The notes below the pieces were generated by a model. It worked only from the letters and a program-made list of their open reading frames with translations. It did not search any database and was not told where the DNA came from. Of a stretch of DNA of 28,493 bases, positions 1,379-12,541 are shown in pieces (the stretch's first letter is position 1; each line of letters starts with the position of its first letter). The position numbers and the translations under genes are program-made. The stretch is from the IMG/VR virus record IMGVR_UViG_3300024520_000385, positions 1-28,493 of that record, one strand, 5' to 3'. Source of the DNA: a virus.

Positions 1379-1436
1379 AAGACGCTACAGAGGGCGATTG
1401 TGGCCGATTGCGGGCTGGCTCTTTTATTTGCCGTTG
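1379..1436 (+). other. Short intergenic stretch, weak terminator-like
   Basis: Non-coding stretch between the amidase stop and the first leader. It has imperfect dyad symmetry (GGCC...GGCTGGC, about 1401-1420) followed by CTTTTATTTG, and a short direct repeat of CGATTG. It may terminate amidase transcription, but it lacks the clean tetraloop hairpin of the later terminators. Confidence 0.3.
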
Positions 1437-1492
1437 TTAGAATAAAACTGTATGCCACCACGTCTAATAAGTAAGAAAGAGAGAGAGACAAG
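1437..1492 (+). promoter_or_regulatory. Repeated leader copy 1 (putative promoter, 5' UTR and RBS)
   Basis: First of seven copies. Block 1 is TTAGAATAAAACTGTATGC, followed by four variable bases (CACC), then block 2 ACGTCTAATAAG, then a purine-rich GAAAGAGAGAGAG tract and the ATG at 1493. The repeat and its fixed spacing are seen directly. Promoter plus ribosome-binding function is inferred from its position before a start codon in every copy. Confidence 0.75.
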
Positions 1493-1816
1493 ATGAGCAG
1501 AACCACCGACACGAGAATTGAGGACACCAAAGACGCAGAATTTCCGGCCACCGGAGCCCGCTGCATCTGGGGACCGGCAGCCGGAAGCCTTCTGTATACG
1601 CCAAGCGAATACGCGAAAAAATGGGACGGAGCCCAGTGGGCCAACGCCGCAATCGGCTCCCGCTTCGGAGGATTCTCCTACGCTGAGCTGAAAATCACCG
1701 GCCGCAAGCTGACTAAAACTCCGGGCGGAGAATACGGAACCCGCTGCCGAATCACCACAAATAAGGGCACCGAAAACGAGCGAACATGGGGAGCTTGGTG
1801 GATCGCTCAGCGATGA
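1493..1816 (+). CDS. Leader-array protein 1, unknown function
   Basis: 107 residues, not recognised. The N-terminus is acidic and polar. The middle is aromatic and glycine-rich (YTPSEYAKKWDGAQWANAAIG, then SRFGGFSYAELKITG), and it ends in TWGAWWIAQR. No signal peptide or membrane segment. The ATG follows the purine tract of leader copy 1, which fixes the start. A strong terminator follows 13 bases after the stop, so it probably makes its own short transcript. Sharing its leader with ArdA suggests an early host-interaction or anti-defence role, which is inference only. Confidence 0.75.
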   Translation: MSRTTDTRIEDTKDAEFPATGARCIWGPAAGSLLYTPSEYAKKWDGAQWANAAIGSRFGGFSYAELKITGRKLTKTPGGEYGTRCRITTNKGTENERTWGAWWIAQR

Positions 1817-1828
1817 CGAGCACCCAAC

Positions 1829-1853
1829 GGCCCGGCGAAAGTCGGGCTTTGTT
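1829..1853 (+). terminator. Rho-independent terminator A (GAAA tetraloop)
   Basis: GCCCGGC, loop GAAA, GTCGGGC form a 7-bp stem with one G-U pair, followed by TTTGTTG. The GNRA-type loop and T-tract are typical of an intrinsic terminator. It lies between leader-array genes 1 and 2 and is almost identical to the terminators at 2191, 2601 and 2915. Confidence 0.85.
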
Positions 1854-1862
1854 GTGCCTTTC

Positions 1863-1915
1863 TTAGAATAAAACTGTATGCCACCACGTCTAATATGCAG
1901 AAAGAGAGAGACAAG
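1863..1915 (+). promoter_or_regulatory. Repeated leader copy 2
   Basis: Same two blocks as copy 1 with variable bases CACC. TAATAAGTAG is changed to TAATATGCAG, which creates a spurious in-frame ATG at 1895 inside the leader. The purine tract and position of the other copies place the real start at 1916. Confidence 0.75.
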
Positions 1916-2176
1916 ATGACTGAATTAGCAACATACCGATGGACAATTACCCGCGACCGAATTTGTGACGGAGAAGACAAGGGCGTCACTGGCCCGCGCA
2001 ATGCCGATGCTTCGCTAGAGGACAACGCTACCCGCTTCTCGATGTATGACGATGACGGCGAATGCTATTACGAGGGAATGCTATACGGCGACTTCGAAGG
2101 CTTCGAGCCGCTGGACGACTTCGGAATGCCGAATGCAGGATGCACAGCGATCAAGCTAAACGGCGAATGGCTCTGA
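1916..2176 (+). CDS. Leader-array protein 2, small acidic protein, unknown function
   Basis: 86 residues, acidic. The core MYDDDGECYYEGMLYGDF and the following GFEPLDDFGMPNAGCTAIK remind me of small conserved proteins of unknown function found in actinobacterial and other phages. That resemblance is from memory and unverified. The start at 1916 is chosen over an in-frame ATG at 1895 because 1895 falls inside the conserved leader and 1916 sits directly after the GAGAGAGACAAG tract, as in the other copies. The acidic, compact character would suit a DNA mimic or inhibitor, but this is speculative. Confidence 0.75.
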   Translation: MTELATYRWTITRDRICDGEDKGVTGPRNADASLEDNATRFSMYDDDGECYYEGMLYGDFEGFEPLDDFGMPNAGCTAIKLNGEWL

Positions 2177-2190
2177 GAACAAGCCCAATC

Positions 2191-2217
2191 AGCCCGGCGA
2201 AAGTCGGGCTTTTCTTT
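2191..2217 (+). terminator. Rho-independent terminator B (GAAA tetraloop)
   Basis: AGCCCGGC, loop GAAA, GTCGGGCT gives an 8-bp stem with one G-U pair, followed by TTTCTTTG. It has the best stem and T-tract of the four copies. It separates genes 2 and 3. Confidence 0.88.
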
Positions 2218-2224
2218 GTGATTC

Positions 2225-2279
2225 TTAGAATAAAACTGTATGCTGCCACGTCTAATAAGCAGAAGGAGAAAAGAACAAC
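2225..2279 (+). promoter_or_regulatory. Repeated leader copy 3
   Basis: Conserved TTAGAATAAAACTGTATGC, variable TGCC, conserved ACGTCTAATAAG, then AGAAGGAGAAAAG as ribosome-binding tract before the ATG at 2280. Confidence 0.75.
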
Positions 2280-2594
2280 ATGAAAAACACCGAAACAGAG
2301 AGTGGACTGAAGAGCTTCATGCTTGCCAAACCCAAGACCAAGATTGCCGCCGAAACCACCAACAATTGCAGAGCTTATGACGCCATCGAATGGGCAGTAG
2401 CCGCGGCAAACAAAGGGCGCCTATGCTGCTTCGATTACCTACACGCCGCCAGCTCGCTTGTCATGATTAGCCCAATATTGTGGACCGAAAAGGAAATCTA
2501 CAGAGCTGCCCTCGAGTGCATCGAAGCGCTTTACTCCAACGGATTCACCCGGCCGCAAGCGATAGCCGCATATCATGCGAGCCGGCGGCTCTAG
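2280..2594 (+). CDS. Leader-array protein 3, unknown function
   Basis: 104 residues, not recognised. The first ~30 residues are Lys/Thr-rich and probably flexible. The rest looks helical (AYDAIEWAVAAANKG, IYRAALECIEALYSNG, PQAIAAYHASRRL). No membrane segment or known catalytic motif. The start is fixed by leader copy 3 with an AGGAGA ribosome site. Terminators lie on both sides, so it is an autonomous cassette like its neighbours. Confidence 0.75.
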   Translation: MKNTETESGLKSFMLAKPKTKIAAETTNNCRAYDAIEWAVAAANKGRLCCFDYLHAASSLVMISPILWTEKEIYRAALECIEALYSNGFTRPQAIAAYHASRRL

Positions 2595-2600
2595 GCCAAC

Positions 2601-2625
2601 GGCCCGGCGAAAGTCGGGCTTTGTT
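2601..2625 (+). terminator. Rho-independent terminator C (GAAA tetraloop)
   Basis: Same hairpin as terminator A: GCCCGGC, GAAA, GTCGGGC, then TTTGTTG. The run from this hairpin into the next leader is essentially identical to the run starting at 1829, indicating duplication or recombination of the whole intergenic unit. Confidence 0.85.
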
Positions 2626-2634
2626 GTGCCTTTC

Positions 2635-2690
2635 TTAGAATAAAGTTGTATGCCAGAACGTCTAATAAGTAGAAAGAGAGAAGAGACAAC
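2635..2690 (+). promoter_or_regulatory. Repeated leader copy 4
   Basis: TTAGAATAAAGTTGTATGC (two changes from consensus), variable CAGA, conserved ACGTCTAATAAG, purine tract GAAAGAGAGAAGAG, ATG at 2691. Confidence 0.75.
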
Positions 2691-2894
2691 ATGAGCAACG
2701 CAACGCTATCCGCTATCCGAATCGACTTGAACAAGTCCGCATGGACATTCTATGCAAAGCACGACGACCAGTGCGCCGTCATGTGCGATGGTTGCGCCAC
2801 GTCCCACGGCTGGCAGGTTGGCCGCGGCGAGGGGTCAGCATACGCGGTCGATAGGTGCGACCAAGACTTAAGGTGCGAAGGATGCGGGCGCTAG
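2691..2894 (+). CDS. Leader-array protein 4, small putative zinc-binding protein
   Basis: 67 residues. Cysteines at 28, 32, 35, 56, 62 and 65 give MCDGC and CEGCGR knuckles about 30 residues apart, consistent with a treble-clef or zinc-ribbon fold. The first 25 residues (SAIRIDLNKSAWTFYAKHDD) look like beta structure. No close family recognised. It could bind nucleic acid or a host protein, but the sequence does not say which. The ATG directly follows leader copy 4, and terminator D follows the stop. Confidence 0.75.
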   Translation: MSNATLSAIRIDLNKSAWTFYAKHDDQCAVMCDGCATSHGWQVGRGEGSAYAVDRCDQDLRCEGCGR

Positions 2895-2914
2895 CCTGCC
2901 GCCATCTAACAAAC

Positions 2915-2940
2915 GGCCCGGCGAAAGTCGGGCTTTGTTG
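2915..2940 (+). terminator. Rho-independent terminator D (GAAA tetraloop)
   Basis: CGGCCCGGC, GAAA, GTCGGGC, TTTGTTG. Fourth near-identical copy. It lies 20 bases after the stop of protein 4 and 8 bases before leader copy 5. Confidence 0.85.
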
Positions 2941-2948
2941 TACGATTC

Positions 2949-3004
2949 TTAGAATAAAACAGTATGCTGGAACGTCTAATAAGCAAGAAAGAGAGAAGAA
3001 GAGG
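2949..3004 (+). promoter_or_regulatory. Repeated leader copy 5
   Basis: TTAGAATAAAACAGTATGC, variable TGGA, conserved ACGTCTAATAAG, purine tract GAAAGAGAGAAGAAGAGG, ATG at 3005. A longer upstream reading frame (from 2855) runs through the terminator and leader and is rejected as the start. Confidence 0.75.
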
Positions 3005-3397
3005 ATGAGAAAAACGGAAGAGGAGCTGAGGGTCATTGCGATTCGGGCACACGGTCAAGTTGAGCGCTATGCAGAGACTGGGCGCCGCCTGACAAGCCGA
3101 ATGTGCCACCAACACGGGACGCGATATTGCGACTGTTGCCCCAATTGCGGAGCAAGGGGCTTGGAGAGCCACGAAGATGGGTGCTGGCGCGATGTGGTAC
3201 GCCCATTCTGTGCCACCCACCTCGCCGTTATTGCCAGCGAATGCCTTACAGTAGAGCAGTGTCTCGCCTGGCTGGACGCATGGCAGAAATTGCTCAACAT
3301 ATTCTGTCTCGAAGCCGAGCGGGCGAACTGGTTTGAGCGCTGGAGTCGGTCGCTACCTTCGAGCCAGCGGAGCGATTGCGATCCCGATGGAAACTGA
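3005..3397 (+). CDS. Leader-array protein 5, Cys/His-rich putative zinc-binding protein
   Basis: 130 residues. A dense metal-site candidate spans residues 34-60: MCHQHGTRYCDCCPNCG, then H56 and C60, with C69 and H72 further on. The C-terminal half is helical (LTVEQCLAWLDAWQKLLNIF) with a Trp/Arg-rich tail. Not recognised as a known family. The start at 3005 follows leader copy 5; earlier in-frame ATGs would translate the terminator and leader. No terminator hairpin precedes the next leader, so transcription may read through into ardA. Confidence 0.72.
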   Translation: MRKTEEELRVIAIRAHGQVERYAETGRRLTSRMCHQHGTRYCDCCPNCGARGLESHEDGCWRDVVRPFCATHLAVIASECLTVEQCLAWLDAWQKLLNIFCLEAERANWFERWSRSLPSSQRSDCDPDGN

Positions 3398-3416
3398 TTC
3401 TTTTCTGGTGCGATTC

Positions 3417-3470
3417 ATCGAATAAAACTGTATGCCAGAACGTCTAATAAGTAGAAGGAAAAAGAACAAC
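3417..3470 (+). promoter_or_regulatory. Repeated leader copy 6 (upstream of ardA)
   Basis: ATCGAATAAAACTGTATGC (left end diverged), variable CAGA, conserved ACGTCTAATAAG, then AGAAGGAAAAAG before the ATG at 3471. No terminator hairpin precedes this copy. Confidence 0.72.
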
Positions 3471-3998
3471 ATGAAAAACAAGAGCCTACAGATCTACGTC
3501 GCTTGCCTGGCGAGCTACAACGCCGGCAAACTTTTCGGAAAATGGATCGACATCACTGACGCGGAAAGCGTTGACGAAGTACACGAGGAAATCAGCGAGA
3601 TGCTGAGTCAGAGCCCGCAACCCTACGCGGAAGAATGGCGCATCGATGACACCGAATATCTCCCCAGCGGACTTGGACTTGAGGGGATGGTCAGCTTTGC
3701 GCTCGCAGTTAGCGAGCACGGCCACCAGAACAGGGAAGCGCTGGCGATGCTTCTCGATGAGGGCTGCGTTACCATCGAAGACCTCTCAACCGAATTTTCA
3801 GACCGCTACAAAGGGAGCTGGGAAGACGGCGTAAGCTTCGCAGAAGACCACGCCGAGCAACTCGGCCTGATTCGCGAAAAAGCCAACGAGCTGGAGCGCC
3901 ATATCGACTGGAAATCCTACGCTCGCGAATTGCTCAGCGAGGAATACTGGGGATGCCGCGGCGCATCTGGAGAGTTTCACGTATTCGCCGGCAGCTGA
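3471..3998 (+). CDS. ardA: ArdA-family anti-restriction protein
   Basis: Predicted cytoplasmic DNA mimic that inhibits type I restriction-modification enzymes by occupying their DNA-binding site (known for the ArdA family). The 175 residues match family length and layout: N-terminal IYVACLASYNAGKLFGKWID (8-27), EEWRIDDTEYLP (54-65), central VSFALAVSEHG, then RYKGSWEDGVSFAEDHAEQL (112-131) and DWKSYARELLSEEYW (146-160) with a final FHVFAGS. The protein is strongly acidic, as a DNA mimic should be. The start at 3471 is set by leader copy 6; an in-frame ATG at 3432 lies inside the leader. This is the only array gene with a recognised job and it suggests the theme of the array. Confidence 0.93.
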   Translation: MKNKSLQIYVACLASYNAGKLFGKWIDITDAESVDEVHEEISEMLSQSPQPYAEEWRIDDTEYLPSGLGLEGMVSFALAVSEHGHQNREALAMLLDEGCVTIEDLSTEFSDRYKGSWEDGVSFAEDHAEQLGLIREKANELERHIDWKSYARELLSEEYWGCRGASGEFHVFAGS

Positions 3999-4003
3999 GA
4001 TTC

Positions 4004-4058
4004 ATAGAATAAAACTATACGCGCCAACGTCTAATAAGTAGAAAGAGAGAAGAAGAGA
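4004..4058 (+). promoter_or_regulatory. Repeated leader copy 7
   Basis: The most diverged copy: ATAGAATAAAACTATACGC, variable GCCA, conserved ACGTCTAATAAG, purine tract GAAAGAGAGAAGAAGAG, ATG at 4059. It starts 6 bases after the ardA stop with no terminator between, so read-through from ardA is likely. Confidence 0.72.
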
Positions 4059-4217
4059 ATGAAAATCCCAGCTCACGCAGTAAAGCCCGGAGACAAGATC
4101 GGAACGGTCGAAGTTTTTGACATAGTGCGCCGCACCTTCGGTGGATTTTATATCCCGATGACAGACGGCTCCCGCTATTGGGTGCGGAGCTTGGCCCAGA
4201 TTGTGACGATCGACTAA
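4059..4217 (+). CDS. Leader-array protein 7, 52-residue unknown protein
   Basis: 52 residues. A small beta-rich protein (AVKPGDKIGTVEVFDIVRR, then GGFYIPMTDGSRYWVRSL), perhaps SH3-like or a small barrel. It is supported mainly by leader copy 7 with its ribosome-binding tract exactly in front of the ATG and by a clean stop at 4215-4217, followed 20 bases later by the next gene. Function unknown. Confidence 0.72.
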   Translation: MKIPAHAVKPGDKIGTVEVFDIVRRTFGGFYIPMTDGSRYWVRSLAQIVTID

Positions 4218-7240: not shown

Positions 7241-7404
7241 GCAGCAGCGTCCCACGAGCCAAGGCGCTGAAGGCTCCCGCAGTCTCCGCGCCATCGAAAG
7301 GCCGGCTCATCAATTCGATAATCTTTTGGCTGACATTCCTTAACACCGAAGAACTAGAAAACATTAAAAGCAAACTGGAGAGAAAACATGAACGATTCAA
7401 ATAA
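7237..7404 (+). CDS. Possible 55-residue hypothetical protein
   Basis: GTG start overlapping the nuclease stop (GTGA), ending 17 bases inside ssb in another frame. The product is basic with one hydrophobic helix (LINSIIFWLTFLN) and a charged helix (TEELENIKSKLERKHERFK). It fills an otherwise 147-base gap in a very compact operon, which is the main support. Could be chance. Confidence 0.45.
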   Translation: MSSSVPRAKALKAPAVSAPSKGRLINSIIFWLTFLNTEELENIKSKLERKHERFK

Positions 7405-7750
7405 TGACATTTCAAGCTGGAACCAATCCGGCATGGTGAACGGTTGCGGCTACTTCCCAGAAAAGGAGGAGATGGGCTCCTACTTCTGGGCCAACATCGA
7501 AAGCCATATAGCAGGCCGCACAAAATATCTGTTCGTCCGCGGCTACCGCTCAGCGGCTGACGGAGCGTCGAGACAAATCAAGAAAGGCGATCGCGTCCTG
7601 TTTAGCGGCAAGCAAGGGTCGAACAAGGACAAGAAAACTGGCGAGTGGACAGTGTGCCTCGAGTTCAATTCCTTCGCCGTGCTCGCTGAAGAGCGAAGCA
7701 TTGACGAGGCGCAAGACGACGGAGGGATGGACGATGTCCCTATGTTCTAG
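7388..7750 (+). CDS. ssb: Single-stranded DNA-binding protein
   Basis: 120 residues. Residues ~12-100 fit an OB-fold (GMVNGCGYFPEKEE, YLFVRGYRSAADGASRQIKKGDRVLFSG, then EWTVCLEFNSFAVLAEE). The decisive sign is the acidic tail ending DDGGMDDVPMF, the SSB C-terminal peptide that recruits replication and repair partners. Ribosome site GGAGAG. Located between the recombination genes and the replication initiator. Sequence similarity to bacterial SSB in the fold itself is weak; the call rests on layout plus tail. Confidence 0.85.
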   Translation: MNDSNNDISSWNQSGMVNGCGYFPEKEEMGSYFWANIESHIAGRTKYLFVRGYRSAADGASRQIKKGDRVLFSGKQGSNKDKKTGEWTVCLEFNSFAVLAEERSIDEAQDDGGMDDVPMF

Positions 7751-7795
7751 CCGCGGGCGCTCCGCCAGATGGCGAAAGCTGGAGAGCTATACAGG

Positions 7796-8710
7796 ATGAA
7801 AAATAGCTCAAGATATAGCCGCGTCAATTGCCGAGTCTGGAACGACAGCAAGGTGCGGCGACTATCGATTGCGGGCAAGCTTTTGTGGTTCCGTCTCCTC
7901 GCTCCACTGGAGCGGGGACGGATCCCCGGCCTGTTTCAAGCTTGGCCAGAGGCGCTAAAGAAGAGCACCGGGCTCCAGGATAAGCAATTCGACAAGGCTT
8001 GGGGAGAGTTAATAGACCTTATGGGCATCGAATACGACGCTGAATGGGGCTTAATTTACCTGGCCAAAGCCGTTAAACACGACCCGCCAAGGAACCCAAA
8101 CACCGTTAAAAGCTGGGTGATTGGGCTCAACGAATTGCCAGAGTGCGAGCTTAAAAGCGAAGCAATACGCAACATTAAACAGTTCTGCCAACAGTTGGGC
8201 GAACACTTCGCCAAACCATTGGACGGGTTGTTACCCGAATATGATCATAACCATAACCATTACCATGATCATGATCATAAGAAGGATCGCGAAACTGTTT
8301 CACGTGAAACGAAAGAGACGCTCTTGAGGAAAGCAAAGCTCGTGGCTGAAAATGTCGATCGGGTTTGGGGTCACTACGCGGACAAGTATGACAAGGAGGT
8401 GAACAAGAAACGCCGGCTCACTAGCGGCATGAAGAAGAAAATCGAAACAAGGCTCAAGGAGTTCACTGCCGAGGAGCTGATGAGCGGGATTGACCGGCTA
8501 TTTATCGATCCTTGGTATCGTGAAAAAGGTCTGTTTGAGCTGAAGTTTGTGGTCAAGAGCGACACGGCAGCGGAAGAATGGATCAATAAGGCTGAAGCGA
8601 AAGCGGACGCGAAACCAAATGCGAGAGTGGTGCAAATTGGCGGCGCCCGTTCTGGAGATGCCGACATTATGAGAAGACAACTAGGAATGAAGGGGACAGC
8701 GAATGAATAA
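7796..8710 (+). CDS. Replication initiator, lambda O-like, containing a nested candidate origin
   Basis: Predicted origin-binding protein. Residues 10-60 look like the N-terminal winged-helix found in phage initiators (NCRVWNDSKVRRLSIAGKLL, then LLAPLERGRIPGLF). A linker follows with a His/Asp run at 150-161 (DHNHNHYHDHDH), then a helical C-terminal domain (~185-270) that would contact the helicase loader encoded next. I chose ATG 7796, with GGAGAG nine bases upstream, over the in-frame ATG 7769, which lacks a ribosome site. The DNA coding for the linker holds palindromic repeats and a parS-like site, as the lambda origin lies inside O. Confidence 0.78.
   Translation: MKNSSRYSRVNCRVWNDSKVRRLSIAGKLLWFRLLAPLERGRIPGLFQAWPEALKKSTGLQDKQFDKAWGELIDLMGIEYDAEWGLIYLAKAVKHDPPRNPNTVKSWVIGLNELPECELKSEAIRNIKQFCQQLGEHFAKPLDGLLPEYDHNHNHYHDHDHKKDRETVSRETKETLLRKAKLVAENVDRVWGHYADKYDKEVNKKRRLTSGMKKKIETRLKEFTAEELMSGIDRLFIDPWYREKGLFELKFVVKSDTAAEEWINKAEAKADAKPNARVVQIGGARSGDADIMRRQLGMKGTANE
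8241..8280. other. Candidate replication origin repeats
   Basis: Three copies of the 8-bp palindrome ATGATCAT (8241, 8265, 8271) and two exact copies of ATGATCATAA, with CCATAACCAT and TTACCAT between them. It is locally AT-rich against a GC-rich background, and further GATC sites lie at 8285 and 8357. The position in the middle of the initiator gene matches the lambda O/ori arrangement. Origin function is inferred. Confidence 0.5.
8296..8311. promoter_or_regulatory. parS-like ParB binding site
   Basis: TGTTTCACGTGAAACG. The 14-bp core GTTTCACGTGAAAC (8297-8310) is a perfect palindrome identical to the core of the widespread chromosomal parS consensus; only the last flanking base (G instead of A) differs. 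It lies in the initiator gene, encoding TVSRET, about 15 bp past the candidate origin repeats. No parA or partition-type parB is in the window. Confidence 0.7.
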
Positions 8711-9371
8711 GGCAGACGGTTTAATAAGACATATGAATTTGGTGGTTGACGGTAAGGCTGAAGCAGTGCGCCAAGAGACAGACCTTGAGAAAAGCAAGAT
8801 GCAGCACCGGCGTGACCAGCTAACGGTCACTGGAGCGAGAGTGCCAAGCCGATATAGGGGTCTCGACATCGCGAGCGCCATCGAGCGAGCGCCGGCCATC
8901 GAGAAGGTACGAGACTTTCTGGACCCGGACGCCTATAGACTGCTCGGCAGCTTCATCGCTTGCGGCTCGACTGGAGTAGGCAAGACAACGCTGGCAGCCG
9001 TGACGATGCGAGAGATTCTTATGAGGGCCTGGCATGGCGATGAGCTGTCATGGTCCGTCGGCAAGTCGGCGTGGTTCTTCGTGGCGTCTGACCTCAGCAA
9101 CGAAATTGCTAGGTGCGCTCCGTGGGAAGAGTGCCGATCGGCAGAGCTTGCGCTCTCAGCGTCTTGGCTTTGCATCGATGACCTTGGCACGGAGCGCGGA
9201 GAGCGCGGCATCTCGGAAATATCGCGCATCATCTCGGCACGCTATAACGACAGCCAGCCGACAGTTATCACCACGGCGATGACTTGGCCGCAAATTAATA
9301 ACCGCTATGGTGAAGGTATTGCGCGCCGGATGCTAGAGGCTGAGGTCATCGAGCTGGGAGGCGCATCGTGA
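8703..9371 (+). CDS. DnaC-like replicative helicase loader (AAA+ ATPase)
   Basis: 222 residues. Walker A GSTGVGKTT (88-96), Walker B WLCIDDLGTE (155-164), and downstream TVITTAMTWPQINNRYGEGIARRML (within 185-215) with the sensor and arginine-finger arrangement of DnaC/IstB ATPases. Predicted to deliver the host DnaB-type helicase to the melted origin. It overlaps the initiator stop by 8 bases, with AAGGGGACA as ribosome site. Initiator then loader is the lambda O-P order with a DnaC-type loader in place of P. Confidence 0.88.
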   Translation: MNKADGLIRHMNLVVDGKAEAVRQETDLEKSKMQHRRDQLTVTGARVPSRYRGLDIASAIERAPAIEKVRDFLDPDAYRLLGSFIACGSTGVGKTTLAAVTMREILMRAWHGDELSWSVGKSAWFFVASDLSNEIARCAPWEECRSAELALSASWLCIDDLGTERGERGISEISRIISARYNDSQPTVITTAMTWPQINNRYGEGIARRMLEAEVIELGGAS

Positions 9372-10715: not shown

Positions 10716-11312
10716 ATGAGTAAAGTTGTTCACGACGTGGACTTTAGCGCTTGTGCCGATTCAGAGGCGCTCGCTAAACAAAGGATCACGGTCTATCTCG
10801 ACAAGACCACAGCGAAGCGCTTGAGAATAGCCGCAGCCACCGACGACCGCAGTTTATCTGATATTGCGGAGGAGGCTATCTTGGCCCACGCTAATAGGAG
10901 CCAAGAATCTGAGATCAAGATGACCCTTGAGACCATTCTTAGCAAGGCGGAAGAGCAGGGCGAGAGATTGGCCAAGCTTTGCTCTTTCACCTATACAGGA
11001 AAGAAGAAGCGCCCAACGATAATTACTAGAAATCGGCACGTGGAATACCTCATCAACGAGCTTCGCGAGTTTCCTTGCTGCTATGAGCCGGTCGGTGAGT
11101 CCAAGGTCGAGATAGACCATATGGATCTGACGAGTGATGCGACCTTTGACGGCACTTGGCCAACCTGCACGGATTGCAATAGGGCGATGAACAAGCCGAC
11201 GGAGCGCCATCGTAGGCGCCCACGGTTTCACGCCTATCATGACAAATATAAGAAAGTTCATCCCGACGAAAACCTTCAGCTGGACCTCGGACTTGATGGG
11301 GACGGCGAATGA
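10716..11312 (+). CDS. HNH endonuclease fused to a ribbon-helix-helix domain
   Basis: 198 residues. N-terminal residues ~21-60 (KQRITVYLDKTTAKRLRIAA, then RSLSDIAEEAILAHA) read as a CopG/Arc-type ribbon-helix-helix DNA-binding domain. Residues ~118-160 form an HNH finger: FPCCYEP, VEIDHMDL (D134-H135), and WPTCTDCNRAMNK with C151, C154 and N155. HNH proteins beside terminase genes are known to assist cutting of packaged DNA in HK97-like phages. The extra binding domain could target it to a specific site such as the adjacent non-coding region; that is inference. Confidence 0.8.
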   Translation: MSKVVHDVDFSACADSEALAKQRITVYLDKTTAKRLRIAAATDDRSLSDIAEEAILAHANRSQESEIKMTLETILSKAEEQGERLAKLCSFTYTGKKKRPTIITRNRHVEYLINELREFPCCYEPVGESKVEIDHMDLTSDATFDGTWPTCTDCNRAMNKPTERHRRRPRFHAYHDKYKKVHPDENLQLDLGLDGDGE

Positions 11313-12541
11313 AGGTGCAATCGATTGCGGTCGCGGAATTGGTCAACGACCCTTCCAACGTGCGAAAGCACAGCGGCAAGAACCTTGACGCTATCAAGGG
11401 CAGCCTGGCCAGGTTTGGCCAACAGAAGCCGATTGTGGTCGGAGCTGATGGCGTAGTGGTCGCGGGCAACGGAACGCTTGAAGCTGCCAAGGCGCTAGGC
11501 TGGCAGAAGATTGACGCGGTCAAGACTGGGCTCAAGGGCAGCGATAGGACGGCCTTCGCCATCGCGGACAACCGGACGAGTGAGCTCGCCGAGTGGGACG
11601 ATGCAGCGCTAGCCGAGCAGCTTAGCGCGTTGGCCATAGACGATGAGGAGCTGTTAGCGGCTGCGGGCTTCGATGAGGCCGAGCTTGAGAAGCTGGTTAG
11701 CGAGACGACCGGCATGGAGGACATCGTTGAAGACGAAGCTCCAGAGCCACCGGCTGACCCGGTGACGAAGCCGGGCGACTTGTGGCAGCTTGGCGAGCAT
11801 CGGGTGTTATGCGGTGACTCGACGAAGGCCGAAGACGTGGCGCTAGCGATGGGTGGCGAGAAGGCCGGGATGATGGTCACAGACCCGCCCTACAACGTTG
11901 AGTATGAGGGGAACTATATCCAAAGCGGGCGCATACTCAGAAAGGACCAAAAGGTTTGGTCTGGTGGAATTGCAAACGACAACCTTTCAGATTTTGGGGA
12001 GTGGCTAGGCTCAGCCTTTGCCGCAAGCGATGTAGCCATGAAAGAGGGCGCGGCCATTTACGTTTGGCACCCTTCCGGCGAAGACGGGAAGCACTTCTGG
12101 GCTGCGTGGCCGTATGATAAATGGCATTTTCAAGTGGACCTAGTATGGAACAAAACCTCGCTGATTATTAGCCGATGGGACTACAAGCCGCAGCACGAGC
12201 CTTGTATGTACGGATGGAAGGGTAAAAACAGGTCTTGGATAGGTCCAAACAACGAGCCCACCGTTTGGGATATACCGAGACAGCAAGGTGCATCTGGGGA
12301 AACGAGAAAGCATCCTACACAAAAGCCGGTAGAGTGCATGGCTCGTGCTATCCGCAATCACGGCGGGTCCGTCTTTGACCCCTTTCTAGGCTCAGGGACA
12401 ACGCTCATCGCCGCCGAGCAGTTAGGCCGAAAGTGCTACGGGATTGAAATCTCGCCGGCCTATTGCGACGTGATTGTGGAGCGCTGGCAGAATCTAACCG
12501 GCAAGAAGGCCAAGAGGGTAGCTGATGGCAAAGCAGCCTAA
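11309..12541 (+). CDS. ParB-domain / DNA methyltransferase fusion (beta class)
   Basis: Residues ~1-95 are a ParB/Srx-like domain (VAELVNDPSNVRKHSGKNLD, then GQQKPIVVGADGVVVAGNGT LEAAKALGW). Residues ~150-395 are an N6-adenine/N4-cytosine methyltransferase with catalytic DPPY (192-195) before the SAM-binding DPFLGSGTT (357-365), plus HPTQKP (335-340), the beta-class order. DPPY favours adenine. The region between (200-330) is the target-recognition part. This fusion is common beside phage terminases. Likely role: modify phage DNA against restriction or mark it for packaging. Coupled by ATGA to the HNH gene. Confidence 0.88.
   Translation: MKVQSIAVAELVNDPSNVRKHSGKNLDAIKGSLARFGQQKPIVVGADGVVVAGNGTLEAAKALGWQKIDAVKTGLKGSDRTAFAIADNRTSELAEWDDAALAEQLSALAIDDEELLAAAGFDEAELEKLVSETTGMEDIVEDEAPEPPADPVTKPGDLWQLGEHRVLCGDSTKAEDVALAMGGEKAGMMVTDPPYNVEYEGNYIQSGRILRKDQKVWSGGIANDNLSDFGEWLGSAFAASDVAMKEGAAIYVWHPSGEDGKHFWAAWPYDKWHFQVDLVWNKTSLIISRWDYKPQHEPCMYGWKGKNRSWIGPNNEPTVWDIPRQQGASGETRKHPTQKPVECMARAIRNHGGSVFDPFLGSGTTLIAAEQLGRKCYGIEISPAYCDVIVERWQNLTGKKAKRVADGKAA

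Follow-up and report, generated by a model that had tools for sequence, protein, structure and literature searches.

The 28.5-kb IMG/VR virus record analysed here, which as a whole is called the window, carries a parS-type site, TGTTTCACGTGAAACG, inside its replication initiator gene. We predict that this site is an orphan parS kept by selection, at which chromosomal ParB of the host probably loads beside the phage replication origin. ParB-parS is the most widespread system of chromosome segregation in bacteria, and the site is likely to be a functional ParB site, any single use of it having lower odds than this function itself. The near-perfect parS that an earlier note on this DNA had pointed out is borne out: the match to the universal consensus TGTTTCACGTGAAACA extends over 15 of 16 positions with the last base as the sole mismatch, the full 14-bp parS core forms a perfect palindrome, and the reading frame across it is (T)VSRET. 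No other site with up to three mismatches to parS has been found in the window, and dinucleotide-preserving shuffles of it have yielded a mean of 0.09 sites at this threshold. From base composition, 7e-5 occurrences of the specified 14-mer would be expected in the window, close to the ∼0.0001 estimated earlier, and even for a fixed VSRET peptide encoded with the codon usage of the phage, the 14-bp core arises with P = 6e-4.

The sequence of the site is also well represented in bacteria. Of 299 Pseudomonadota genomes, 50 contain the exact 16-mer, whereas the reversed control gave a single match, and among the ten chromosomal loci that were read, copies lie, among others, in gidA-, gidB- and parA-like frames (names that are a reading of the translated peptides), where they are read as VSRET. 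Therefore, a parS that codes in the VSRET frame is normal in bacteria, and the variant in the window is, by this comparison, to be regarded as an ordinary chromosomal one, within the tolerance seen in chromosomes. Besides the 15/16 match and the coding VSRET variant, proximity to an origin, here a candidate one, may be shared with chromosomal parS; the window's site differs in lying on a virus genome, as a single site and without parA or parB. The same chromosomal frames could be taken to mean that the site is a neutral relic of a captured fragment of the host origin region, with a parS from gidA, gidB or parA still in its VSRET frame, but the peptides flanking the site are unlike those chromosomal contexts and the gene in which it lies is a phage initiator, which makes such a relic extremely improbable.

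The call of a replication initiator gene in the earlier note has turned out to be right in kind (Table 1). The N-terminal ∼145 residues are 32-35% identical to annotated DNA replication protein O, primosomal and DnaT-like proteins (E ∼1e-15), and the gene is followed by one for a DnaC-like loader, which gives the lambda O-P order. An N-terminal domain of residues ∼12-156 is common to phage O/DnaT-like proteins, and the C-terminal part is separate from it. The structure model is confident for residues ∼50-150 only, and a fold search with it has given no significant match; residues 157-178 are modelled with low confidence as an unstructured linker, and the parS occupies codons 176-181, at the end of this linker. 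Genes for an Erf-like annealing protein and an exonuclease have been found upstream of the initiator. In lambda, the phage origin lies within the linker part of its own O gene, and for this reason the AT-rich tract located ∼10 bp upstream of the parS has been read as a candidate phage origin, an assignment that draws on base composition and the lambda analogy. The tract is the second lowest-GC 50-bp stretch of the window and shows a 12-bp period of codon repeats at 8241-8280, which code for a His-rich linker, as well as three imperfect 16-nt repeats at 12-nt spacing. The likeness to lambda thus covers an initiator followed by a helicase loader and AT-rich repeats in the linker of the initiator gene, whereas the parS that adjoins the tract sets the window apart, with its origin assigned by analogy. 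To the left of the replication genes, dispersed repeats of ∼70-110 bp are found among small ORFs at 1420-4070 (around 1423, 1824, 2186, 2596, 2910, 3400 and 3996); they are 78-93% alike between the window and a relative and are possibly repeated promoter or ribosome-binding units.

Table 1. Positions of the parS-type site and of the genes and tract discussed with it (window coordinates).
Feature	Position	Strand	Basis or remark
SSB-like protein, weak	7388..7750	+	PF00436, E 0.0096, below cut-off
Replication initiator gene, lambda-O-like position	7769..8710	+	N-terminal homology, structure model
AT-rich tract, candidate DNA-unwinding element	8238..8287	.	30% GC; CAT/GAT/AAC codons
parS-type site TGTTTCACGTGAAACG	8296..8311	+	Perfect palindrome 8297-8310; codons for T-V-S-R-E-T of initiator
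DnaC-like helicase loader, lambda-P position	8703..9371	+	phrog_50, E 1.9e-19; directly 3' of initiator
ParB-CTPase-fold N-domain fused to N6/N4 DNA methyltransferase	11309..12541	+	No HTH_ParB

Relatives of the window in IMG/VR are few. Only L122 (99% at the nucleotide level) and L123 (∼90%) have been found, and a third contig, L133, is related in the portal region only; the longer records used below are G047 (37.5 kb, 99% identical to the window) and G048, which corresponds to L123 (35.4 kb, about 90% identical). The latter keeps 16/16 of the window's site at about 6-10% divergence, and it shares 58 of the 60 bases upstream (97%) and 41 of the 64 downstream. Since it is the one informative relative and is 97% identical upstream, the conservation of the palindrome within the window's own lineage is suggestive and weak alone. 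The drop in identity begins right after the parS (window 8312-8375) and is followed by a recovery, as might be seen with a recombination junction or a rapidly changing stretch starting at the site. Around distant relatives of the initiator (L143-L220), no parS within 3 mismatches has been found in 833 kb, and the site is by this measure no feature of the initiator family. These relatives are mostly enteric by appearance, as judged from named genome matches of the same query and not host by host, and enteric bacteria, to our knowledge, have no chromosomal ParABS. The sheath protein of the phage has given no match in 398 Pseudomonadota genomes, the portal protein has given no more than 27-31% matches in 385 genomes from the class to which G173 belongs, and the phage collection contains no near DNA match to the window. 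The closest annotated phages are Mx4, MMP7 and Riverbug by sheath and portal (∼35%) and phiAO1 by terminase, and in the stretches of them that were examined (Mx4 minus its last 7 kb) no parS within 3 mismatches has been found.

Beyond this lineage, sites of the same type are frequent in viral contigs. The 14-bp core is present at ≥120 loci of IMG/VR and full 16-mers at ≥94, both being lower bounds and no frequencies, against a single locus in the whole collection for TGTTTGACGTCAAACA, a composition-matched control palindrome. Among the matches listed, the flanks complete the 16-mer in 94 of 148 14-mer sites, and the classes 16/16, 15/16 and 14/16 hold 94, 46 and 8 sites, where 9, 56 and 83 would be expected with random flanks. 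The T..G / C..A type to which the window's site belongs has been observed 23 times among these matches, versus ∼1.8 predicted from the 14/16 class, and according to this flanking-base test about 92% of the 15/16 T..G-type sites in viral contigs are above chance. ParB (TIGR00180) exceeds the cut-off in none of 98 parS-bearing records, the two relatives included, and twelve of the 98 give weak ParB-fold matches. Contamination with host chromosome has been rejected as the source of these sites because terminase, portal and tail genes adjoin the parS in several records and ParB and ParA are missing from the long ones. Taken together, orphan parS of the universal type is evidently enriched in phages generally and selected at the DNA level.

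Arrangements other than that of the window have also been observed. In three related viral contigs (L029 2658-3443, L074 10536-11461 and L087 241-960), between three and five full parS lie within ∼1 kb, and ParB has not been found in the records of the first two. Another four related contigs (L044, L070, L075 and L109) have a common intergenic parS within strongly diverged surroundings, and in three of them a conserved element resembling AACATGGCCCT lies near it.

The question whether DNA or peptide is conserved has been addressed in a lineage unrelated to the window, for which 80 relatives were collected by a portal-region protein, regardless of parS; the identity of the query as a portal protein is a reading from size and place, and the test is independent of it. 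In 13 of the 19 closest relatives, the region immediately 3' of the query gene contains a site with ≤2 mismatches. In these 13, and thus conditioned on having the site, mean identity amounts to 92% over the 16 bp as compared with 61% for 100 bp on either side. The variants seen are TGTTTCACGTGAAACA, TGTTCCACGTGAAACA, TGTTCCACGTGGAACA, AGTTTCACGTGAAACA and GGTTCCACGTGAAACA, and the peptide over the site changes from VSRET to VPRET and VPRGT. In L235-L253, the symmetric double substitution TGTTCCACGTGGAACA goes along with the change from VSRET to VPRGT. In L292, L305 and L312, which are more distantly related, parS lies elsewhere, which suggests independent gain. Because the palindrome is kept while the peptide drifts, selection in this portal-gene lineage evidently acts on the DNA palindrome and not on the peptide, and the strongest evidence for selection is that from other phage lineages and not from the window's. 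In the earlier note, a peptide kept without its palindrome had been named as an observation that would speak against the site; the reverse is seen here. The conservation in related phages that it had proposed to check has thus been found in an unrelated lineage, and for the window's own lineage the 16/16 match in one relative gives a weak answer. A coincidence of TVSRET codons, or a constraint on the protein, could in principle produce such a palindrome within a coding sequence for which the lineage offers one informative relative. This explanation has to contend with the chance expectations given above for the window and for the VSRET codons, with the excess of T..G-type sites in viral contigs, and with the phages in which the peptide has changed over a conserved DNA site; we regard it as quite unlikely.

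A parS requires a reader, and domain searches have found neither HTH_ParB nor ParA (AAA_31) in any of 49 records, namely the window, G047, G048 and 46 other parS-bearing records of ≥20 kb. The statement of the earlier note that no ParA or ParB is encoded consequently holds for partition proteins, but it had overlooked the gene for a ParB-CTPase-fold domain fused to a DNA methyltransferase (Table 1). This fusion has been set aside as a parS reader because HTH_ParB is missing from it. A phage protein might nevertheless take the place of host ParB at the site, be it the fusion with its ParB-type fold, a small HTH protein or the initiator itself, as initiators often bind sites in their own gene (lambda O). 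The absence of HTH_ParB from the window and the 48 other parS-bearing records makes a reader of this kind very unlikely, as does the match itself, which follows a host-type consensus common to unrelated phages and is no iteron; moreover, fusions of ParB fold and methyltransferase are a known separate, phage-enriched class (PMC12704722).

Tyrosine integrase has been found in neither the window, G047 nor G048, and in 5 of the 46 other parS-carrying records. A clear lysogeny module has not been identified in 37 kb of a relative either, the regulators seen being small HTH and Arc-like ones only. These results bear on the suggestion, made in the earlier note, that the phage segregates as a plasmid-like prophage, i.e., as an extrachromosomal replicon inherited via host ParA and ParB on its parS, in the manner of SGI1 with the IncC parABS. 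The missing integrase would fit a non-integrating element and the site adjoins a likely origin, and a mobile element with orphan parS has a precedent (PMC10954446). Against it stand the lack of phage-borne ParA and ParB and of a clear lysogeny module, together with the regulators seen, and also that orphan parS is common in integrase-free records and beside structural genes, which fits lytic phages more. Given the missing integrase and lysogeny genes, and with integrase absent from most records that carry an orphan parS, plasmid-like partition is less favoured; the suggestion is unsupported by these data, and we consider it unlikely.

The closest precedent found is nevertheless that of SGI1, which contains two parS mimics without ParAB and hijacks the parABS of IncC plasmids, and copies of its site destabilise the owner of parABS (PMC10954446). 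Like SGI1, the window has a parS and no cognate ParB on the element; SGI1 uses the ParB of another replicon, which in the window phage is only proposed. The two also differ in that SGI1 targets plasmid partition by two plasmid-type sites, whereas the window has a single universal, chromosomal-type site, located in the initiator linker of a phage. Phage-encoded partition systems are represented by P1 and N15, each with ParA, ParB and a cognate, non-universal site of its own. Cyanophage Mic1 likewise possesses its own ParAB and parS (PMC7156551). The window shares with these three a parS-like palindrome on a phage genome, but it encodes neither of the two proteins that, along with a cognate non-universal site, make up their ParABS modules. 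In the published papers searched, few of them from subscription journals, no account of phages with an orphan parS of the universal type has been found.

That the phage recruits host ParB to the vicinity of its origin, as the earlier note had proposed, is the best-supported reading and is partly supported overall: a canonical 15/16 parS lies in the initiator linker by an AT-rich tract, a parS-reading protein is absent from the window, and sites of this type are enriched in viral contigs. For ParB in general, parS binding, the CTP clamp, sliding and contact to ParA are established (PMC12704722). Putative host ParB would bind the phage parS, close as a CTP-dependent clamp and slide over several kilobases of neighbouring DNA. 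Through such clamps, the phage DNA may, as it replicates, be coupled to ParA and SMC of the host, by which it would be placed with the nucleoid or the host origin machinery during lytic replication. As every new copy adds a parS, rising phage copy number would also deplete the host centromere of ParB. That the site mainly serves as a decoy, titrating ParB (and SMC) off the host origin while the phage itself makes no use of ParB, would agree with the established nucleation of many sliding clamps by one parS and with phage copies that would soon outnumber the few parS sites of the host. For a decoy, however, several sites would be expected, where the window phage has one and most parS-bearing records one each, and the origin-side position would need no special role; we would give this use of the site little credence.

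As a general reading, to which we incline slightly, orphan universal-type parS is common and selected in phages of ParABS bacteria, whose host ParB places or organises the replicating lytic genomes without phage-encoded ParA and ParB and mostly without integrase. This would explain the parS found in viral contigs, and an orphan parS would hint at ParABS in the phage's host. If many phage lineages carry host-type centromeres without a reader, host ParB, ParA and SMC would have to be counted as phage host factors, and both the placement of phage DNA and the failure of host segregation would become addressable by a 16-bp synonymous change.
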